Shown here one piece after another: positions 2,381-18,683 of a stretch of DNA of 24,001 bases. The notes beneath the pieces are model-generated. The model had not been told where the DNA came from, did no database searches, and saw only the letters and a program-made list of their open reading frames with translations. The DNA is taken from positions 1-24,001 of IMG/VR virus record IMGVR_UViG_3300029319_000507. One strand, given 5' to 3'. This DNA comes from a virus. Positions within the stretch are counted from its first letter, which is position 1. The number at the start of each line of letters is the position of its first letter. Position numbers and translations under genes: made by a program.

Positions 2381-4729
2381 TTAATTCTTTGTTGCTATTA
2401 TAACATCAGTATAGTTAACATTCAAGTTAAAGTTAGGATTTGTAAACCCGTGACTGTGACCCGAATTACTACCCACGGATGAAGTTCTACCAACATTTGG
2501 TACAGAGTTACTGCGACTAATATTATAAGATTCATATAAATTACCTGCACCAGATCCAGAACCAGGATAATTATTAGCACTCATATTAGTTCCGTTTCGT
2601 AACTGTCCATGATTACCTGACCTAAATGCAAGGTGATAGTGTGATGGAATTTGACTTGTCGTTAGTGTGTGACTAGCTACTGAACCATTACCAGTGGTTA
2701 CTGTGCTATTTAAAACTCCTGTAAATGAATTACCACCACCATTACTAACGTTTCCACTTACAAGTCTTAATGCACGATTATTCAGAGATGTTTCTTTTGT
2801 CCATCCTGATGGTGCTGATGATTGTTGAAATAACATTCTTGTTCCAGCAGGTATAGCTGCTAAAGCTCCAGATATAGTTCCCGAAACACTCAAGTCTCCA
2901 GTTACTACTAAAGTTGAACCATTAAAAGTTAAATTTTGTTCAGCATTTAAAGCACCAGCAGTATTAGAACCAGTTATAACACGATCATTTGCATTATTAA
3001 ATATGGAAGCTGTTCCCGATGGACCAGGAGGACCTGGTACACCTTGAGGACCTGTTGGTCCTTGTGCACCTTGAGGACCTTGTGCACCTTGAGGACCTTG
3101 TGCACCTTGAGGACCTTGTGCACCTGTGTTACCTTTATCTCCACCACCACCTTGAGAACCTTGAGGACCAGTTGGTCCTTGAGCTCCTTGTGGACCTGTT
3201 GCACCCTTATCTCCTTGGGGACCTTGAGCACCTTGAGGTCCAGTGTTACCTTGAGCACCTTGAGTGCCTTGAGGTCCTTGAGCACCAGTAGCACCTTTAT
3301 CTCCTTGAGGACCTTGAGCACCTTGAGCACCTTGAGCACCTTGGTCTCCTTTCTGACCTTTCTGACCTTTCTGACCTTTTTCTCCTTTCTGTCCTTGAGA
3401 ACCTTGAGGTCCTGAAGTCGCTGCAACCCAATTTAATTCTGTCCCTGTCGAAGATAAAACCTGTCCAGATGTTCCTAGTTCACCATCCTTATCTTGTAAT
3501 CCACCGTAAATTTTAACACCGTCTGAAGTAGTTTGAAAACGGTCTGTATTATTATGTTTAAGTAATACCCTATCTTGATGTTTATATGATACTCCAACAT
3601 CACCATTAGAATTACTTAAAATAACCTCACCACTAACAGTTTGTAAATTAAGATTTCCCTCACTGCTCTTTATAATACTCGTTTGACCATCATGATATAC
3701 CTGTAATTCATTTTTATTATTTCCAAGTTGTATCCTGTCATTATCAAGTAAATGAACATTAGAATTAAATGTAGAAACACCAACGACATTTAGAGTTTCC
3801 GCAATATTTACATTGTCTAGCTCAGTAAATCCATCGACATCAAGATCTCCATCAACATTTAAGTCGCTAGTAAAAGTTGATATACCAGTTGAATTAATAC
3901 GAAATCTCTCTGTACCCTCAGTTGTAACTTTGAAATGTCCATCTGATCCTGTATCAACTACTTCTGCTTCAGTATTTCCTTCAAATATTTTATCTGCAAA
4001 TCCATCTCCTTTTAAACCCTTGATACCATCCGCACCATCATCACCAGCAAGACCTTTCTGACCTTTAGCACCTGTAGCTCCTGTGTCACCTTTTTGTCCT
4101 TTATTACCTTGTGCTTCGACTGCACCTTTTTCACCTTTCTGACCTACCTCACCTTTTTGACCAGTACTTCCAGTTAAACCTTGAGGTCCAATATCACCCT
4201 TAGTGCCTTTTTCACCAGTGTCACCTCTACCACCAGCATTTGCTAAAACCCATTGTGCACTATCAGCATCAACATAATAAACAAATAAATCACCACTGTC
4301 ACTTTCCCACCACAGTTCACCATTTCTAGCACCTGTAGGTGGGGTGTCACTTATAGTTACTGGATTGACTGTTATTGTAGCAGCAATACCAGGATGTCCT
4401 GATGGATTTTGAACACTTACATTTGCGGTAACAGCAGCACCAACAAAATTTAATTGAGTTACACTACTCGCTGCTGATACTGGATTATCTTCATCAAATA
4501 TCGTAATTGCACCTGGTACAAGACCACCACCTACAGGCACCCAAAATCTTTTACCAGGAAAACCTGGCACTGCTACTAATTGATATTGTGAACCAGATGG
4601 AACAGAAGGACCAACTAGAGGATCAGAAAGATTTGGTTCAGCTTGATCTAATCCAAGATATTGAAACCTGTCATCAGTTAATTTATCTTGTGGTCTTCTT
4701 TTTTGTCTTCCACTTAAATACTTTGGCAT
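2381..4729 (-). CDS. Collagen-like tail fibre with HxH receptor-binding tip
   Basis: A 782-residue modular fibre. Residues 1-165 are an N-terminal beta-rich region. A first Gly-X-Y block starts near residue 169 (DNA 4001-4225). Residues about 245-435 are a beta-rich shaft with phrases such as LGNNKNELQVYHDGQ and DGELGTSGQVLSSTG, seen in cyanophage fibres. A second, 44-triplet Gly-X-Y block (DNA 3014-3412) is rich in GPQ and GAQ. The last ~140 residues form a tip with PAGTRMLFQQSSAPSGWTK, H697-Y-H699 and H758-S-H760; HxH motifs bind iron in trimeric T4 fibre tips. The start abuts the upstream stop (TAATATG). Trimerisation and host recognition are inferred. Confidence 0.88.
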   Translation of the reverse strand: MPKYLSGRQKRRPQDKLTDDRFQYLGLDQAEPNLSDPLVGPSVPSGSQYQLVAVPGFPGKRFWVPVGGGLVPGAITIFDEDNPVSAASSVTQLNFVGAAVTANVSVQNPSGHPGIAATITVNPVTISDTPPTGARNGELWWESDSGDLFVYYVDADSAQWVLANAGGRGDTGEKGTKGDIGPQGLTGSTGQKGEVGQKGEKGAVEAQGNKGQKGDTGATGAKGQKGLAGDDGADGIKGLKGDGFADKIFEGNTEAEVVDTGSDGHFKVTTEGTERFRINSTGISTFTSDLNVDGDLDVDGFTELDNVNIAETLNVVGVSTFNSNVHLLDNDRIQLGNNKNELQVYHDGQTSIIKSSEGNLNLQTVSGEVILSNSNGDVGVSYKHQDRVLLKHNNTDRFQTTSDGVKIYGGLQDKDGELGTSGQVLSSTGTELNWVAATSGPQGSQGQKGEKGQKGQKGQKGDQGAQGAQGAQGPQGDKGATGAQGPQGTQGAQGNTGPQGAQGPQGDKGATGPQGAQGPTGPQGSQGGGGDKGNTGAQGPQGAQGPQGAQGPQGAQGPTGPQGVPGPPGPSGTASIFNNANDRVITGSNTAGALNAEQNLTFNGSTLVVTGDLSVSGTISGALAAIPAGTRMLFQQSSAPSGWTKETSLNNRALRLVSGNVSNGGGNSFTGVLNSTVTTGNGSVASHTLTTSQIPSHYHLAFRSGNHGQLRNGTNMSANNYPGSGSGAGNLYESYNISRSNSVPNVGRTSSVGSNSGHSHGFTNPNFNLNVNYTDVIIATKN
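3014..3412 (-). repeat. 44-triplet Gly-X-Y block with 9- and 18-base tandem repeats
   Basis: Tandem repeats inside the second fibre gene: an 18-base unit (plus-strand CCTTGTGCACCTTGAGGA, coding Gly-Ala-Gln and Gly-Pro-Gln triplets) occurs three times plus 11 bases at 3060-3124. A 9-base unit ACCTTGAGC runs three times from 3311, and TTTCTGACC three times at 3350-3376. All periods are multiples of three. Confidence 0.85.
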
Positions 4730-12060: not shown

Positions 12061-13385
12061 TTGTCTCTAACTCCAAAAGTATCTCTTACTAATTTAAGTT
12101 TTGTATAAGACCCTGTAGCATCAAAATAATGCACTACTTCCTTAATCATATATAGCCCACTTTGATGACGGTCAATATCTTTTCTCTTTTCACTATCTAA
12201 TCTAGGAAAAACACAATCAATTACATCACCAGCTACTAAGTTAGTATTTAATGGTATAGTCATTACTAACAACTGCGTAAATAAAATATTGTACCTCATC
12301 ATAGCCTGAGAATGTATTTTTGTTGGGTCTGCATTCTCATCTGTTGATACATCGTTTTCTAATGTACCAATATCTAAAATACCAGTAATATATCTACTTG
12401 GTACAGAGGCTAACGTACGATTATCTTTATCATTTAAACTAGGTAAAGTAACATCAATATCTCCCCCTAAATTTTTTATTTTTCCAGAATAATCCTCTAG
12501 TTTAAATACTGTTTGTGGTGCTGGTGTGTACTCGAAGGTCAAAGGATTTAAATATTTTCGATGACTGCAATAAGCACCTCTCTCTAAATTTTCTAATAAA
12601 TTTTGATTTTTAGATGTAGAATACTCTAATATTTTAAAATCATTTTCTTTTCCTTTATAATCTACCACGCCTGGTGTAAACACATATTTTTCTTGAAATG
12701 GTGTTTGATCTATTAATTGATCTATAGATTTAAATCTAAATCCCTTTTGCGTTTCAAAAAAGAAATATCCTGCAGTTGAATCCTCCTTTGATGCAGATGC
12801 GGGAACAGATTTTGAAGCTAACCAAGTCATTAATGTAAAAGGTTTTTTCATGTTTCCGATAAATCCATAGGGATTTTGGGTTTCATCAACGTCATATAGT
12901 TTCTCAGAATTCAAATAATTTTTACATATATCCTCCACACTATCAGATATTTTTTGTGATGATGGAAATCTCTTTCCCACCCTTACTGTTTCATTTGTAA
13001 TAGCCTCTCTTGATACTAAATTTAAAGTGAATGTTTCTTTACCTGATTGTATAATAACATTAGTTATCGAACCAACATATAGATATTTACTTGGAGTTTC
13101 TGAAAAGTCAAGTCCTTTATTATTTTTTGAATTACCTGATATTTTTATGACAACTCTTTCACCTCCTCGAAGTGGAAATCCATTATATAAAGATTCCATT
13201 TTGCCATCTTTACCTTTGATACTATTACCTGTATTAACAACAATTGCTTTTGCAGTAATCATGGGAGAAAATAAATTTTCGTAATAATTAAAACTAACAA
13301 CACCTGAAGAGATGTCAGCAGTTCTTTCTCCATCTACAGATTCGATAATAAATTTTTCGTATACTGATTTATCTATTGCTGCCAT
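12057..13385 (-). CDS. 27: Baseplate hub protein, gp27-like
   Basis: A 442-residue protein of the gp27/gpD/Mu gp44 type, the trimeric ring that joins the tail tube to the gp5 spike. N-terminal features are FIIESVDGERTADISSGVV and SPMITAKAIVVNTG, followed by GGERVVIKISG and a central FTLNLVSREAITNE segment. The C-terminal part has QLLVMTIPLNTNLVAGDVID and the closing GLYMIKEVVHYFDATGSYTK, a typical ending of hub proteins. T4 gp27 is 391 residues. It overlaps its neighbours by one base (TAATG upstream) and four bases (ATGA downstream to the gp5-like gene). Assignment rests on pattern and gene order. Confidence 0.8.
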   Translation of the reverse strand: MAAIDKSVYEKFIIESVDGERTADISSGVVSFNYYENLFSPMITAKAIVVNTGNSIKGKDGKMESLYNGFPLRGGERVVIKISGNSKNNKGLDFSETPSKYLYVGSITNVIIQSGKETFTLNLVSREAITNETVRVGKRFPSSQKISDSVEDICKNYLNSEKLYDVDETQNPYGFIGNMKKPFTLMTWLASKSVPASASKEDSTAGYFFFETQKGFRFKSIDQLIDQTPFQEKYVFTPGVVDYKGKENDFKILEYSTSKNQNLLENLERGAYCSHRKYLNPLTFEYTPAPQTVFKLEDYSGKIKNLGGDIDVTLPSLNDKDNRTLASVPSRYITGILDIGTLENDVSTDENADPTKIHSQAMMRYNILFTQLLVMTIPLNTNLVAGDVIDCVFPRLDSEKRKDIDRHQSGLYMIKEVVHYFDATGSYTKLKLVRDTFGVRDK

Positions 13386-14845
13386 TACGTGTACTTAAGA
13401 GTGGATACGCTTTGAAGATTCATTAATGTTTGCTCAAGTTGAACTTCTTTTTGAGCGTTAAATTTTTTACTACCTAAACCAGCACTGGCCATCGTTGACG
13501 AACCAGATGATTGCATTGGTTTTTCAACTATAAAGACAGTTTTTCCTTTTTTCTTTTTAGATTTTACATTTACATCTTTTTTTGTTGGTTTTAAAAGAGA
13601 GGATAAATTAACTTTTCTCCTACCACCTTCACCACCCTCAAAATCAGTATCATACTCACCAGTTACTTTAGCAACTTCTTCATTTACATTTTTTTTGATG
13701 TTAATTAATTGATTTTTTGTATCTGTAAGTTTTGGAGCACTGACTGTAGATGAAGTATCAGGTGCAACTTCAGGAGTGTCAGTCTTGGTTCCTTCTACTC
13801 TTTTTGAAGATTCTTCATCAAGTGCTTTTTTCGTATCAACTTTAGATGTGTCAAGATTTTTATCAATTACCTTATTAATTTCATCTTCAGGTGGTTTAAT
13901 TTCCACTTCTGGCATCTCTTCAGTCTTTTGAACTGGTTTTATATTTTTTGTTGGATCGATTTGTTCATCTTCACTTGACTCTGATTTAGCAGGTGTCATA
14001 ACATTTCCTGCTTGATCTATTTCACCTTGATCTGAATCTGTTTTTTTAATTTTTGTTTCTAATTTATCAACACCAAAAGATATCTTTTCTTGTTGAGCCT
14101 TTATGCCTTCCTCTTCACTTTGATTATCCTGTAGATTATCTTGTTGATTATTTGTATTTCCTTCTTCATTATTTTCATTTTTATCTTCATATTCCTTTTG
14201 CAATTCTTCCATCTCATCACCAAAACTAGTGTATTCGTTCGATGTTTGAACTAATTGCCCATCTAATTTCGCTAATCCTCCACCTGCTCTATTAAGATTC
14301 TCCTCAATTCCTTTTTTATTTTTTTGATAGTCAAACGAAGGAATTTTTGAAAGTGCATCAGATATAACTTGACCTATTCCAACAACTATATTTTTTATTG
14401 TGTTTATAAAAGCACCTAGAATACCCGCAACTCTTCTTATTAATTTAATTACTCCTGATAAAGCTGCTATAATTTTAGGTAAGTTTGTAACTGCCCATCC
14501 AATTAATAATATTCCAACAAAATCTAATAATCTTCCTAAGAAACCTCTCGTGCTCTTAGCAAGAATGCTTCCTTTTTGTTTAGCAGGACCTTGAAGAGAC
14601 GCTGCTTCAATCTCATCCTCTCGTGCTTTTCTTCTTACATTCTCTCGTCTTATTCTAAAAAAATTATTATCTTTAGATATGAGTGATTTTTTAAATAAAT
14701 TTGATTCTTTTGTATTTTTAACTATCTCAGCTGCATTCTTTTTTGCTCGCTCTAATCCCTTATTAAATTTTTGTACAGAATCTCTGATAGATTTTATACT
14801 GATTGATGATTTAAGTAGTGCATCCCTTCTAGATTTTAAAGACAT
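13385..14845 (-). CDS. Tape-measure-region structural protein (second of a related pair)
   Basis: A 486-residue protein. Residues 1-95 are Lys/Arg/Glu-rich and probably helical. Residues 97-117 carry KSTRGFLGRLLDFVGILLIG-W, followed by a hydrophobic stretch to about residue 155. Residues about 200-400 are very acidic, Gln/Asn/Glu/Lys-rich and probably disordered or coiled. The C-terminus is short and basic, then ends LMNLQSVSTLKYT. The motif around residue 100 is shared with the upstream 534-residue protein, so the two look like paralogues. They lie where T4 has gp28 and gp29, between gp51 and gp27. A role in the hub or as part of a tape measure is inferred. Confidence 0.65.
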   Translation of the reverse strand: MSLKSRRDALLKSSISIKSIRDSVQKFNKGLERAKKNAAEIVKNTKESNLFKKSLISKDNNFFRIRRENVRRKAREDEIEAASLQGPAKQKGSILAKSTRGFLGRLLDFVGILLIGWAVTNLPKIIAALSGVIKLIRRVAGILGAFINTIKNIVVGIGQVISDALSKIPSFDYQKNKKGIEENLNRAGGGLAKLDGQLVQTSNEYTSFGDEMEELQKEYEDKNENNEEGNTNNQQDNLQDNQSEEEGIKAQQEKISFGVDKLETKIKKTDSDQGEIDQAGNVMTPAKSESSEDEQIDPTKNIKPVQKTEEMPEVEIKPPEDEINKVIDKNLDTSKVDTKKALDEESSKRVEGTKTDTPEVAPDTSSTVSAPKLTDTKNQLINIKKNVNEEVAKVTGEYDTDFEGGEGGRRKVNLSSLLKPTKKDVNVKSKKKKGKTVFIVEKPMQSSGSSTMASAGLGSKKFNAQKEVQLEQTLMNLQSVSTLKYT

Positions 14846-16449
14846 TATGCAAAGGCTCCAAACGTAGAAACAGCAAAGCTGGTGTGTATATTGTTATTAT
14901 CAAAAGCTATGAATGGAAGTTTACTAGATGGTTCCTCCACCTGTCCTGAAGGAGCAGCACCACCTCCACCTCCTCCACTATCACCACCTACTATTGGTAT
15001 ATTCACCACTGATGGTTGACCTTCCTCTACGTTTGATATATTTTCAGCGACATTCAATTCTTTTTTGGAATTAATGGGAGTAATAGAATCAGATTGATCT
15101 GTATTTGAAGCAATCATAGTATTATCAACTGAATCAGACCCTGATTGACTATTCATTCCAAACGCCAATGTATTCGTTTCGGACTCTATTGCCGACACTT
15201 CAGTTTCAGTTTCTTCTTCCTTTTTCTTTCCAAATCCAGGTATTTTTATTTTTGAAGCTAATGCTTTACCTATTCCAAATGGTATTGTACTTAATATAAA
15301 TGTTATTATTTTAGTTGCTATTAAACCTACTCCTAAAGCTGCAGCAATTTTTCCAGCAGCAAATATTACAAGTGGAGCAGCTATCGCAGCGACTATAATA
15401 CCACCAAGATTATTTTTGATTGCCTCAACAGGGTTTACACCATCAACAAATATATCAAACAAAGTACCTATGGCAAAAGTGCTTTTTACACCACCAAATA
15501 TTTTTCTAAACGGACCAAGTGCTTTGCTTAGTAATCCTGTTTTTGCAGCTCCAGCAGTCGCACCAGCAGTCGCACCAGCAGCGGTGCCAGAGGCAGATGG
15601 TTTCATTCCAAATGCCTCGCCTAATTTTTTAAATTGTCTTTCAAAAAAAGAATATACTCCACCAACAAGAGGAAGAGAAGCTATCGCACCACCTATCCCT
15701 AACGCTGTTCCACCCTTGATGCCAGCTTTCGCCAAAACTTTTCCAACTTGTCCAGTTAGTAATTTAATTATTGCTGAAAAGGGTCTTCTTAATATATTAT
15801 TAAAACCAAACCTAAATGCCCTTGATGCCAGCATTGCGGTCAATCCAAATATTTTCTTCAATCCAAGCGTGACAGCTGTTAGAGTCGCTCCTATAACAAT
15901 CAGACCTGTCGTCAACTTACCTTTTAACTTATTAAGTAAATCTATATTTCCATCTGCATTAGCATTTATCATATCTATGATGGTGCTTGTCAACCATCCT
16001 CCTGCTAATATAAAGAAGAAATTAGTAAGTCTCGATAATATTCCTTGAGTTTTTGATGCGATTCTACGAACAGGAGAAAGTAAGGCAAATTGAATTCTCT
16101 TTTCAATATCACTTTCTTTTCCCTCTCTCAGTCCCTGCTCTGCTAATATTCTCTCTCTATTTTGCTTTGCTGCTTCTCTTTGTCTTGCTAATGAATCACT
16201 TACCGCTAAATTGTCCTTAATATTACCTAATGAAAAATTTAACGAACTTAAACTAACTGATATATTTTGTAATTGTTGTGATACTGAGGTTAAAGTTAAA
16301 GAATTTTGGTTAAGTAAACTTGTTGTCTGTGGGTCAGGTTGAGCTGGTGGTGGAACAGCACGACCAGTGAAGATACTAGAAGATACCGTATTTCTTACGG
16401 CTCTAATACCTCCTGCTATCGGTGAACTTAAACCTTGTTCCTCATCCAT
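14845..16449 (-). CDS. Probable tape-measure-like protein (first of a related pair)
   Basis: A 534-residue protein directly after the gp26/gp51-like chaperone pair, the standard place for a tape measure. Residues 45-115 are heptad-like and charged. Residues 132-152 carry SKTQGILSRLTNFFFILAGG-W, the motif shared with the next gene. Hydrophobic, membrane-like segments follow (LIVIGATLTAVTLGL near 183-197; GGIIVAAIAAPLVIFAAG and onward in roughly 345-395), as is usual for tape measures that enter the host membrane. A Ser/Asp/Gly-rich C-terminal region follows. The start overlaps the gp51-like gene by eight bases. T4 gp29 is 590 residues, so size fits, but I see no decisive family motif. Confidence 0.65.
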   Translation of the reverse strand: MDEEQGLSSPIAGGIRAVRNTVSSSIFTGRAVPPPAQPDPQTTSLLNQNSLTLTSVSQQLQNISVSLSSLNFSLGNIKDNLAVSDSLARQREAAKQNRERILAEQGLREGKESDIEKRIQFALLSPVRRIASKTQGILSRLTNFFFILAGGWLTSTIIDMINANADGNIDLLNKLKGKLTTGLIVIGATLTAVTLGLKKIFGLTAMLASRAFRFGFNNILRRPFSAIIKLLTGQVGKVLAKAGIKGGTALGIGGAIASLPLVGGVYSFFERQFKKLGEAFGMKPSASGTAAGATAGATAGAAKTGLLSKALGPFRKIFGGVKSTFAIGTLFDIFVDGVNPVEAIKNNLGGIIVAAIAAPLVIFAAGKIAAALGVGLIATKIITFILSTIPFGIGKALASKIKIPGFGKKKEEETETEVSAIESETNTLAFGMNSQSGSDSVDNTMIASNTDQSDSITPINSKKELNVAENISNVEEGQPSVVNIPIVGGDSGGGGGGAAPSGQVEEPSSKLPFIAFDNNNIHTSFAVSTFGAFA

Positions 16450-16621
16450 TTGCTTCTTGTTTTGCCTTTAGATTTTCTTCTTCAACATGTTGTTGTAATA
16501 ATGATACGTAAATCTCCCTTTCCCAAGGAATCATATTTTCAAGCTCAGTCAAGCTATATTTATGGTGCTGCATCAATGCAAAATTCAATTTATAGTATGA
16601 CTCAAGATCTTCGTGTGCCAT
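16442..16621 (-). CDS. 51: gp51-like tail/baseplate assembly protein (T-domain-like)
   Basis: A 59-residue protein; the pattern YYKLNFALMQHHKYSLTELE, then N-M-I-P-W-E-R-E-I-Y, resembles the second (T) domain of tail-assembly chaperones, with its hydrophobic start and Met-Pro-x-x-E motif. In T4-like marine phages the small gene after gp26 is usually called gp51, the hub assembly catalyst, although T4 gp51 itself is 249 residues. I choose the ATG at 16621, which has GGTGAG just before it; a GTG at 16627 would add two residues. It could be made alone or by -1 frameshift from gp26 (see slippery site). It leads straight into the tape-measure-like gene. Confidence 0.65.
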   Translation of the reverse strand: MAHEDLESYYKLNFALMQHHKYSLTELENMIPWEREIYVSLLQQHVEEENLKAKQEANG

Positions 16622-16623
16622 AC

Positions 16624-17340
16624 TCACCCGAAAAAATTCTGTAGCCCCTCTAAAACAATTTCACTTTCAACATTAGTATTTGGATTTGTTACCTTAACTT
16701 TATGAGATAACTTTGGCATTGTTTCAAAGAATTTTTCTATTTCTTTGAATTGACTAGAATTCAATTGATCTAAGAATTGAGATAATTCTTTCTTAGTACA
16801 ATCTTCAGAAGTCCAAGACTCCTCTTCAGAGTAAACCTGTTCAATACAACTTGATATTAAATCAAAAGTATCATCAACACCCATCTCAGCAGAAGCAAAA
16901 TTATTTTTTATAAACTCCATTAGAGATGGATACTTCATCCTGAGAGTATAATTATCGTCCAATTTAATGTCTCTTGAATGATTTTCATCTGTAATAACTT
17001 TTATTGAATCAATATTAATTGACTTTGGAACTTGTGTTTTCCCATCATCAGGGCAAGTTACCATCACTTCAATTTCTTCTCCAACAGACTTACCACGAAT
17101 GTTTAAGAACAAATATTCAATATCAAATGTGGATAATTTGTCAACTTTTATACCTCTTGATATGATACAATGAGATATAACATCTTTGACTGCATTTGCA
17201 ATCTGTGTACTATCCTGTGACTCCATCGCAAGAATTAAAATTTTCTCCTCTTTGACAAGAAAAGGTCTATATTTTATTTTTCTATTTGACGAAGGTAATA
17301 CCAACTCATAAGTTGGGGTTGCAATTTTTGGTAAAGGCAT
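16624..17340 (-). CDS. 26: Baseplate hub protein gp26 / tail-assembly chaperone
   Basis: A 238-residue protein of the T4 gp26 family (T4 gp26 is 208). The N-terminal TPTYELVLPSSNRKIKYRPF followed by LVKEEKILILAMES is characteristic. Later features are FDIEYLFLNIRGKSVGEEI and a C-terminal LPKLSHK-type segment (MPKLSHKVKV). The middle has a C-P-D-D-G motif with a single Cys. It is placed exactly like the G protein of lambda: after tail-tube-type genes and before a second short chaperone frame and the tape measure. A perfect TATAAATA promoter lies 26 bases upstream. The last codons AAT TTT TTC GGG TGA include a -1 slippery heptamer. Confidence 0.8.
   Translation of the reverse strand: MPLPKIATPTYELVLPSSNRKIKYRPFLVKEEKILILAMESQDSTQIANAVKDVISHCIISRGIKVDKLSTFDIEYLFLNIRGKSVGEEIEVMVTCPDDGKTQVPKSINIDSIKVITDENHSRDIKLDDNYTLRMKYPSLMEFIKNNFASAEMGVDDTFDLISSCIEQVYSEEESWTSEDCTKKELSQFLDQLNSSQFKEIEKFFETMPKLSHKVKVTNPNTNVESEIVLEGLQNFFG
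16630..16636 (-). promoter_or_regulatory. Putative programmed -1 frameshift site TTTTTTC
   Basis: Minus-strand T-TTT-TTC in the gp26 frame (X-XXY-YYZ form), two codons before the gp26 TGA. A -1 slip here continues into CGG GTG AGT ATG and the whole gp51-like frame, giving a predicted 299-residue fusion. Confidence 0.5.
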
Positions 17341-17381: not shown

Positions 17382-18218
17382 TTATGGATAAAATCCACGA
17401 CCAAGTTCTCCTCCTCCTAGATTTTGAACTGTTTGATTAATGGTTCCAGTCATAGATGAATTAAATGAAGAACCATCAAAATTCAACATAGTTCTACTCG
17501 TCTCTCTCATCAAACTATTAAATCTATCATTATCTCCATAAGATGTAGCACCATCCTTATTTGGGTTTCCAAATGCAGCACCAATATCATTAAAGGCTCT
17601 ACCTAAATCTCTTGATAATGATGATGATTCACCAGCGATGTATCGATCATAACTAAAAGATGCTGTTGCTTTAAGAACTTGGGAAGTACCATATTGAATT
17701 CTAGTTGAGTTTAATGATAGGGGAAATAATCCTACAAACCTATATTCTATGAATTGTGAATAATTTTTTTCAAATTTTACAACACGAGTATCATTTGATT
17801 TATATTCATCAGGATAATTTAATTGAAAGTAATATGTGTCTGCAGAAACATCCGTAGTGTTACCACCAGTTACATATTCCATCCAATGCTCTAAGAATTT
17901 AAGTGATTTATATTCATTATCAACATAGAACTCAAAATTTATTTGAGTAAAATTACGAGTATGTGCAAATCTCTCAACCATACCCTGATAATCACCAACA
18001 GTATTAACTGCTGCTAATGCACTGCCAGGTAAGACAGCATTATAACATAATAAACCTGCATCTTCAACTATAAATCTATCATTTACACCCTTCCTCCTCA
18101 TCATGGACTTAAGAGGACTATTAGGTAAAGCAAATTTAACAAGATAATTAGATGTCTGAGCTACATTCTGTATCTTTGGTAATATATCCGATATTCTTTT
18201 TGGTCTTGGTGCTGGCAC
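17382..18218 (-). CDS. 54: Baseplate tail-tube initiator gp54
   Basis: A 278-residue protein of the tail-tube-like fold. Recognisable segments are RISDILPKIQNVAQTSNYLV at the N-terminus, AGLLCYNAVLPGSALAAVNT, then DYQGMVERFAHTRNF and INFEFYVDNEYKSLKFLEHW, followed by YRFVGLFPLSLNST and KATASFSYDRY. This order is that of gp54/gp19 tube proteins, which nucleate tube polymerisation on the baseplate together with gp48. T4 gp54 is 320 residues. The start is GTG at 18218; the next in-frame ATG would cut into the conserved core. A CTAAATA late promoter lies 24 bases upstream. It is separated from gp48 by a strand switch, unlike T4 where 48 and 54 are adjacent and collinear. Confidence 0.8.
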   Translation of the reverse strand: MPAPRPKRISDILPKIQNVAQTSNYLVKFALPNSPLKSMMRRKGVNDRFIVEDAGLLCYNAVLPGSALAAVNTVGDYQGMVERFAHTRNFTQINFEFYVDNEYKSLKFLEHWMEYVTGGNTTDVSADTYYFQLNYPDEYKSNDTRVVKFEKNYSQFIEYRFVGLFPLSLNSTRIQYGTSQVLKATASFSYDRYIAGESSSLSRDLGRAFNDIGAAFGNPNKDGATSYGDNDRFNSLMRETSRTMLNFDGSSFNSSMTGTINQTVQNLGGGELGRGFYP

Positions 18219-18248: not shown

Positions 18249-18683
18249 ATGTCTTATAAGGGAAAATACTATCCTTCATTTCCCAGAAAGTACAAAGGTG
18301 ATCCTACTAATATTATTTACAGGTCACTTTGGGAAAGAAAGTTTATGGTATATTGTGATAAAAATCAAAATATTTTAGAGTGGGCAAGTGAGGAAATAGC
18401 AATACCCTATCGTTCTCCGATTGATAATCGAGTGCATAGATACTTTCCAGACTTTTACATGAAGGTAAAAGAAACTAACGGGAAGATAAAAAATTATGTA
18501 ATTGAAGTTAAACCAGCAAAGCAAACAAAACCACCAGTGAAACCAAAAAGACAAACAAAAGGTTATATTCGTGAAGCATATGAATATGCAAAAAATCAAG
18601 CAAAATGGAAAATGGCAAAAGAGTTTTGTGCAGATCGTCAATGGGTATTTAAAGTAGTTACAGAAAAAGAATTAGGAATATGA
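18249..18683 (+). CDS. 4: Head completion protein gp4 (gp50), nuclease-like fold
   Basis: A 144-residue protein of the T4 gp4 family (T4 gp4 is 150 residues), needed to finish filled heads before tail joining. The N-terminal KYKGDPTNIIYRSLWERKFM is highly typical, as is WASEEIAIPYRSPIDNRVHR. The core also fits a PD-(D/E)XK nuclease: E29, P67-D68 in YFPDFYM and E86-V-K88 in YVIEVKP, the arrangement seen in TnsA-like enzymes. A basic C-terminal half follows. It is the first gene of the plus-strand block, has a CTAAATA promoter, and lacks a clear Shine-Dalgarno. Its stop overlaps the next gene (ATGA). Confidence 0.85.
   Translation: MSYKGKYYPSFPRKYKGDPTNIIYRSLWERKFMVYCDKNQNILEWASEEIAIPYRSPIDNRVHRYFPDFYMKVKETNGKIKNYVIEVKPAKQTKPPVKPKRQTKGYIREAYEYAKNQAKWKMAKEFCADRQWVFKVVTEKELGI

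Follow-up and report, generated by a model that had tools for sequence, protein, structure and literature searches.

Do the gp26-like and gp51-like frames of a T4-like marine phage encode two separate proteins, or are they one gene that is read in two ways? The question is raised by a stretch of viral DNA of 24,001 nucleotides (positions 1 to 24,001 of IMG/VR record IMGVR_UViG_3300029319_000507; hereafter, the window). We propose, with a probability of roughly 93%, that this locus is the frameshifted tail assembly chaperone (TAC) gene of a T4-like, P-SSM2-related marine phage, and that it would yield both a short protein (TAC-N) and, by a -1 frameshift, a longer fusion (TAC-NC). The features on which this proposal depends are:

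16624..17340, minus strand: TAC-N, annotated as gp26-like 'baseplate hub'; 238 amino acids, zero-frame product; PF12322, phrog_150

16630..16636, minus strand: slippery heptamer T_TTT_TTC in X_XXY_YYZ phase, followed by one sense codon (GGG) and then the TAC-N stop

16442..16630, minus strand: TAC-C, annotated as gp51-like 'hub assembly catalyst'; the -1 frame that would be entered after the slip; 62 codons plus stop

16594..16624, minus strand: predicted stimulatory hairpin; 5' arm 16624..16615, 11-nucleotide loop, 3' arm 16603..16594

16619..16621, minus strand: ATG usually annotated as the start of gp51, within the 5' arm of the hairpin

The gp26-like open reading frame (ORF; 17340..16624, minus strand) ends in CTA CAG AAT TTT TTC GGG TGA. 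An earlier note on this DNA claimed that T-TTT-TTC at the end of gp26 is in the X_XXY_YYZ phase and that a -1 slip there gives a 299-residue fusion, and we confirmed this directly in the sequence: TTTTTTC lies at 16636..16630, and a -1 slip continues with CGG GTG AGT ATG GCA... as far as a stop at 16444..16442, for 299 residues in total. Across the slip the fusion reads FF-RVSMAHEDLESYYKLNFALMQHHKYSLTELENM..., and its predicted junction peptide is LQNFFRVSMAHEDLESYY. In profile searches, TAC-N matches the Pfam family T4_baseplate (PF12322; E 2.8e-75, 253 bits against a cut-off of 24.5), which is the only PF12322 match in the whole window, as well as phrog_150 (gp26; E 1.2e-82). TAC-C matches phrog_634, 'baseplate hub assembly catalyst' (E 1e-29, 104 bits), and it matches no TAC family in Pfam. 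The closest named relatives of the window include P-SSM2-like phages.

If the heptamer is used, then it should be conserved as nucleotides and not just as amino acids. The comparison covered 333 loci in which the end of TAC-N is complete, taken from IMG/VR and from named phages (a Rhizobium query of IMG/VR yielded only two relatives). T_TTT_TTN is in phase in 332 of the 333 loci, ending in C (252), A (54), T (24), or G (2), and in nearly all of them the TAC-N stop is one codon past the heptamer or directly after it. The check on relatives that the earlier note had suggested thus came out in its favor: relatives both near and far retain the heptamer and the -1 relation, among them P-SSM2, S-PRM1, KVP40, Aeh1, HTVC008M, phiM9, and Cr30. 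Elsewhere in the relatives' same genes, T_TTT_TTN occurs in frame at 32 of 72,395 codon positions (0.00044), and any X_XXY_YYZ occurs at 0.5% of codon positions, so a single such site near the end of a gene would be only mildly unusual. From the comparison across loci, we conclude that the conservation of the heptamer is not due to chance.

We also counted changes at each codon on a tree of 282 distinct proteins (built with FastTree). The codon that precedes the heptamer's TTT has 44 changes at its first two bases (giving Ser, Asn, Asp, Ala, or His) and none at its third base. The first Phe codon of the heptamer is TTT in 282/282, with zero changes on the tree. The next codon alternates between TTC, TTA, TTT, and TTG, so swaps of Phe to Leu stay within TTN and the heptamer is kept. 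At other columns of the gene where Phe is invariant, there are 40-59 third-base changes, and the median over all columns is 63. This freeze of the third bases argues that the slippery site is under selection at the nucleotide level.

Downstream of the heptamer, we predict a hairpin. In the window's clade, the stem (AGTATGGCNC / GNGTCATACT) starts 5 nucleotides past the heptamer. In an alignment of 89 sequences from this clade, to which the formal covariation count was confined, the stem is paired in 96.5% of cells, and its covariation score is above all 500 shuffles and above all of the slid controls. One pair in the stem occurs as U-A (49), G-C (16), or A-U (13), and its two sides are the third base of an Ala codon, where changes are silent, and the second base of a Glu/Val/Ala codon. 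Sequences also fold well when taken singly, with a z of -4.0 for P-SSM2. Base-paired structure is present 5-6 nucleotides past the heptamer in several clades, and the stems differ between them: the MED4-213 group has GCCCTC/GAGGGC, part of the TTTTTTA group has a stem of the GGCTCTC/GAGAGCC type, and the ACG-2014j group has one of the CTTCC/GGAAG type. Pooling hides these differences, which explains why RNAalifold yielded no usable consensus when the TTTTTTA and TTTTTTT clades were pooled. A search of the region against Rfam gave no relevant family. Because the ATG that is annotated as the start of gp51 lies in the stem in the window's clade, it is probably not a start codon there. Overall, we think it likely that stimulatory hairpins 5-6 nucleotides after the heptamer are a clade-specific feature of T4-like marine phages and that, in the window's clade, the RNA pairing partly dictates the protein sequence of TAC-C and the annotated ATG is just a piece of the stem.

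The strongest alternative is that gp51 is a separate small protein with an ATG of its own, at which translation reinitiates following termination at the stop of gp26 (TGAGTATG), and that the two frames are merely adjacent. The window does have an ATG 2 nucleotides past the stop, and a stand-alone gp51 is annotated in many records. However, there is no ATG within the first 12 codons in 126 of the 257 distinct loci, and the stretch is still conserved as protein: in loci with neither an early ATG nor an early GTG, there are 977, 386, and 3980 differences at codon positions 1, 2, and 3 of the -1 frame just past the zero-frame stop, so this stretch evolves as a translated -1-frame protein. (Some of these loci have an early TTG, which could be a weak start.) A separate gp51 would also leave the third-base freeze at the heptamer and the full-length, fused gp51 of T4 (see below) unexplained, and it would have to start inside a hairpin stem in the window's clade. 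We consider this alternative improbable. The -1 frame is open in all 318 complete loci, where it runs for 56-67 amino acids past the slip with no premature stop, and the simplest reading of the sequences is that it is entered from upstream.

If the frame changes within one gene, the -1 product might instead arise by slippage of RNA polymerase on the run of T. Slippage during transcription is plausible at runs of 8 T, and the Melnitz-like clade has such runs at this site, but the window has only 6, and a phased X_XXY_YYZ with base-paired structure shortly downstream, in several clades, is the anatomy of ribosomal -1 frameshifting. This seems even less probable than a separate gp51. That a single gp26-51 gene was broken by a sequencing error or a recent mutation is scarcely credible: one locus alone could look like this (and phage CP21, discussed below, is possibly such a case), but the same frame break recurs in cultured phages and in metagenomes, at more than 330 loci in all, with the stop nearly always at the same place relative to the heptamer, which refutes this explanation for the family.

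T4 itself supports the proposal that the two frames belong to one frameshifted gene. T4 gp26 (208 amino acids) and gp51 (249 amino acids) both match PF12322 (E 8.8e-64 and E 3.9e-52, respectively), as the window's protein does, so they are paralogues. T4 gp51 has an additional C-terminal stretch of about 48 residues that is homologous to the window's -1 frame. In our alignment, T4 gp51 is collinear with the full fusion from the window, and T4 gp26 stops at most 3 residues from the junction. T4 gp26 would correspond to TAC-N and T4 gp51 to the fused product, and T4 would thus have one gene for each of the forms that the window would make through its frameshift. T4 differs from the window in that these are two diverged genes on opposite strands, with no frameshift. 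Judging from the sequences and the structural model described below, we identify 'gp26' as TAC-N and the 'gp51' frame as the part that extends TAC-NC at its C terminus. As a separate observation, the product of T4 gene 26 (3803-4429 of our locus L001) weakly matches the gp28 family phrog_1140 (E 9e-4), and gp28 may be a further relative of gp26.

This assignment would account for two earlier puzzles. Sullivan et al. 2010 reported that gp51 of cyanophages is only about 20% of the length of T4's and does not have the first ~200 residues, and that gp51 is 'missing' in Aeh1 (PMC3037559). The cyanophage proteins would be short because the gp51 frame is only the C-terminal extension of the fusion, and gp51 seems to be missing from Aeh1 because its -1 frame is unannotated (the heptamer is present). 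Besides Aeh1 (L342), the gp51 or TAC-C frame is present in the -1 relation and yet unannotated in AS-szw (L088), S-PRM1 (L003), and ACG-2014j (L097).

Is the short product a chaperone? An AlphaFold2 (AF2) model of TAC-N is confident, with a predicted local distance difference test (pLDDT) score of 90. In VIA-align, its neighbours are 3fgx (Z 8.0), the HK97 TAC 2ob9 (7.9), YqbN 3klu (7.2), and 5ir0 (5.4); the next row is at 2.8. We take YqbN and 3fgx to be TAC-like. The HK97 TAC and YqbN thus rank high among the structural neighbours of the N-terminal domain predicted for TAC-N, but they share 8% identity or less with the window's protein, which is about twice as long, and a sequence search of the PDB with a TAC-N profile found no credible match. 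We consider that the model supports a TAC fold for the short product, on a moderate score. The earlier note recast gp26 and gp51 as a chaperone pair, and this part of it is supported by the paralogy in T4 and by the fold match to the HK97 chaperone; its T4 background needed correction, as T4 carries genes 26 and 51 on opposite strands and T4 gp51 is a protein of 249 amino acids, not a short one.

Frameshifted TAC genes of the G/GT type are expected to lie between a tail tube gene and a tape measure gene. In the window, the neighbours of TAC-N are:

17382..18218, minus strand: tail tube-like protein, upstream of TAC-N; phrog_45 'tail tube', E 3.3e-36

14845..16449, minus strand: next gene, tape-measure candidate by position; 534 amino acids

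The 534-residue protein has no significant match in Pfam or PHROG. Its gene shares its neighbourhood with the annotated tape measures of RHph_I1_18, HTVC008M, and Cr30, and this synteny is the only basis for the tape-measure label. The two genes after the chaperone (14845-16449 and 13385-14845, both minus strand) have an N-terminal stretch in common (26% over 149 amino acids, single-comparison E 3e-5), which includes a similar hydrophobic segment. The two may have arisen as tandem paralogues, or a single tape measure may have been split or duplicated. Beside the tail tube gene, and divergent from it, is a protein with a TnsA-like endonuclease N-terminal domain (18249-18683, plus strand; PF08722, E 1.4e-24). 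Farther away on the minus strand, a long tail protein with collagen repeats (2381-4729; PF01391, E 2.3e-28) is followed closely by a 2OG-Fe(II) oxygenase (1490-2077; PF13640, E 2.7e-10), which could be a prolyl/lysyl hydroxylase that acts on the collagen-like fibre.

Several observations weigh against the frameshift reading or qualify it. Three loci are off-pattern. Serratia phage 3M, a member of the Ackermannviridae, and Vibrio phage K476 retain the -1 relation without a U6 heptamer. (Serratia 3M has G_GTT_TTC [L343, 1440-1490], which resembles the site in T7 gene 10; the site region of K476 is L090 3690-3723.) In Campylobacter phage CP21 (L344 1400-1640), a TAC-C-like peptide is in the +1 frame after a gp51-like ORF. 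Relatives of CP21 at 95-99% identity match only up to residue 189, and the +1 relation may stem from an indel in a fused gp51 or from an error in sequencing. In the window itself, one pair of the hairpin is mismatched (A.A, 16616/16602) and the fold is weaker (z -1.5), and the Melnitz-like clade has no clear hairpin beside its longer run of T. The structural match of the TAC-N model covers only about residues 1-90, and Foldseek gives HK97 2ob9 an E of 1.2, although with the highest probability among the matches listed. The downstream tape measure is a candidate that is assigned solely by its position. Finally, the case for TAC-NC being made comes from sequence.

What would the two products do? 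From the site, its phase and conservation, the open fusion frame, the hairpin covariation, the collinearity with T4 gp51, and the fold similarity, we infer the slipping, its rate, and the chaperone action. Most ribosomes would end at the TAC-N ('gp26') stop. A minority, with tRNA-Phe in both the P and A sites, would shift back by one base on U_UUU_UUC, aided by the hairpin that starts 5 nucleotides downstream, and would make TAC-NC, the 299-residue fusion with the 'gp51' domain. By analogy to gpG/gpGT of lambda, whose heptamer we take to be different from the window's, many copies of TAC-N and a few of TAC-NC would coat the tape measure protein, the C-terminal domain of TAC-NC would recruit subunits of the tail tube, and both forms would then leave the tail. 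In lambda, gpG forms a coat on the tape measure, gpGT recruits the tube protein through its T part, and the virion contains neither (PMC5009743). This 2016 review calls T4 an exception (PMC5009743), which gp26/gp51 would now explain. T4 needs gp51 for assembly, but the particle does not contain it, and a review lists both gp26 and gp51 among the hub assembly chaperones (PMC3004832). That review also cites genetic studies that place gp26 in the hub, so it is not settled that gp26 is missing from the particle.

Frameshifting in several T4-like groups is reportedly described in the abstract of a 2022 study by Vladimirov et al. Two papers that cite this study (Vladimirov, Gautam & Davidson 2022, Virology 566:9-15) credit it with identifying the TAC genes of T4-like phages, some of which are frameshifted, and T4 has a separate gene for each form. 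In PMC10885494, the citation concerns T4-like phages in which a short gene and a fused gene take the place of frameshifting. In PMC12846349 (the Adele paper), it concerns poly-T slippery or frameshift signals in the TAC-N genes of T4-like phages. The earlier note's impression that frameshifting was undescribed for T4-like gp26/gp51 was therefore mistaken: the principle was already published in 2022, and the present finding is a correct rediscovery. As far as the citing papers describe them, those TAC-N/TAC-NC proteins are of the same gp26/gp51 family, and we see no mechanistic difference. The covariation of the hairpin and the per-codon test may go beyond the 2022 study. We found no published account of a clade-specific covarying hairpin, where our view of that study is through the papers that cite it.

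For T4-like phages, this means that the gp26 'hub subunit' and the gp51 'hub assembly catalyst', which have long been misnamed, become one chaperone gene with two products, and this recasting covers the marine and other exo-T4 phages that we sampled. Database records should annotate a joined coding sequence. What is gained over the published principle is confirmation at scale and a stimulatory structure that can be tested.
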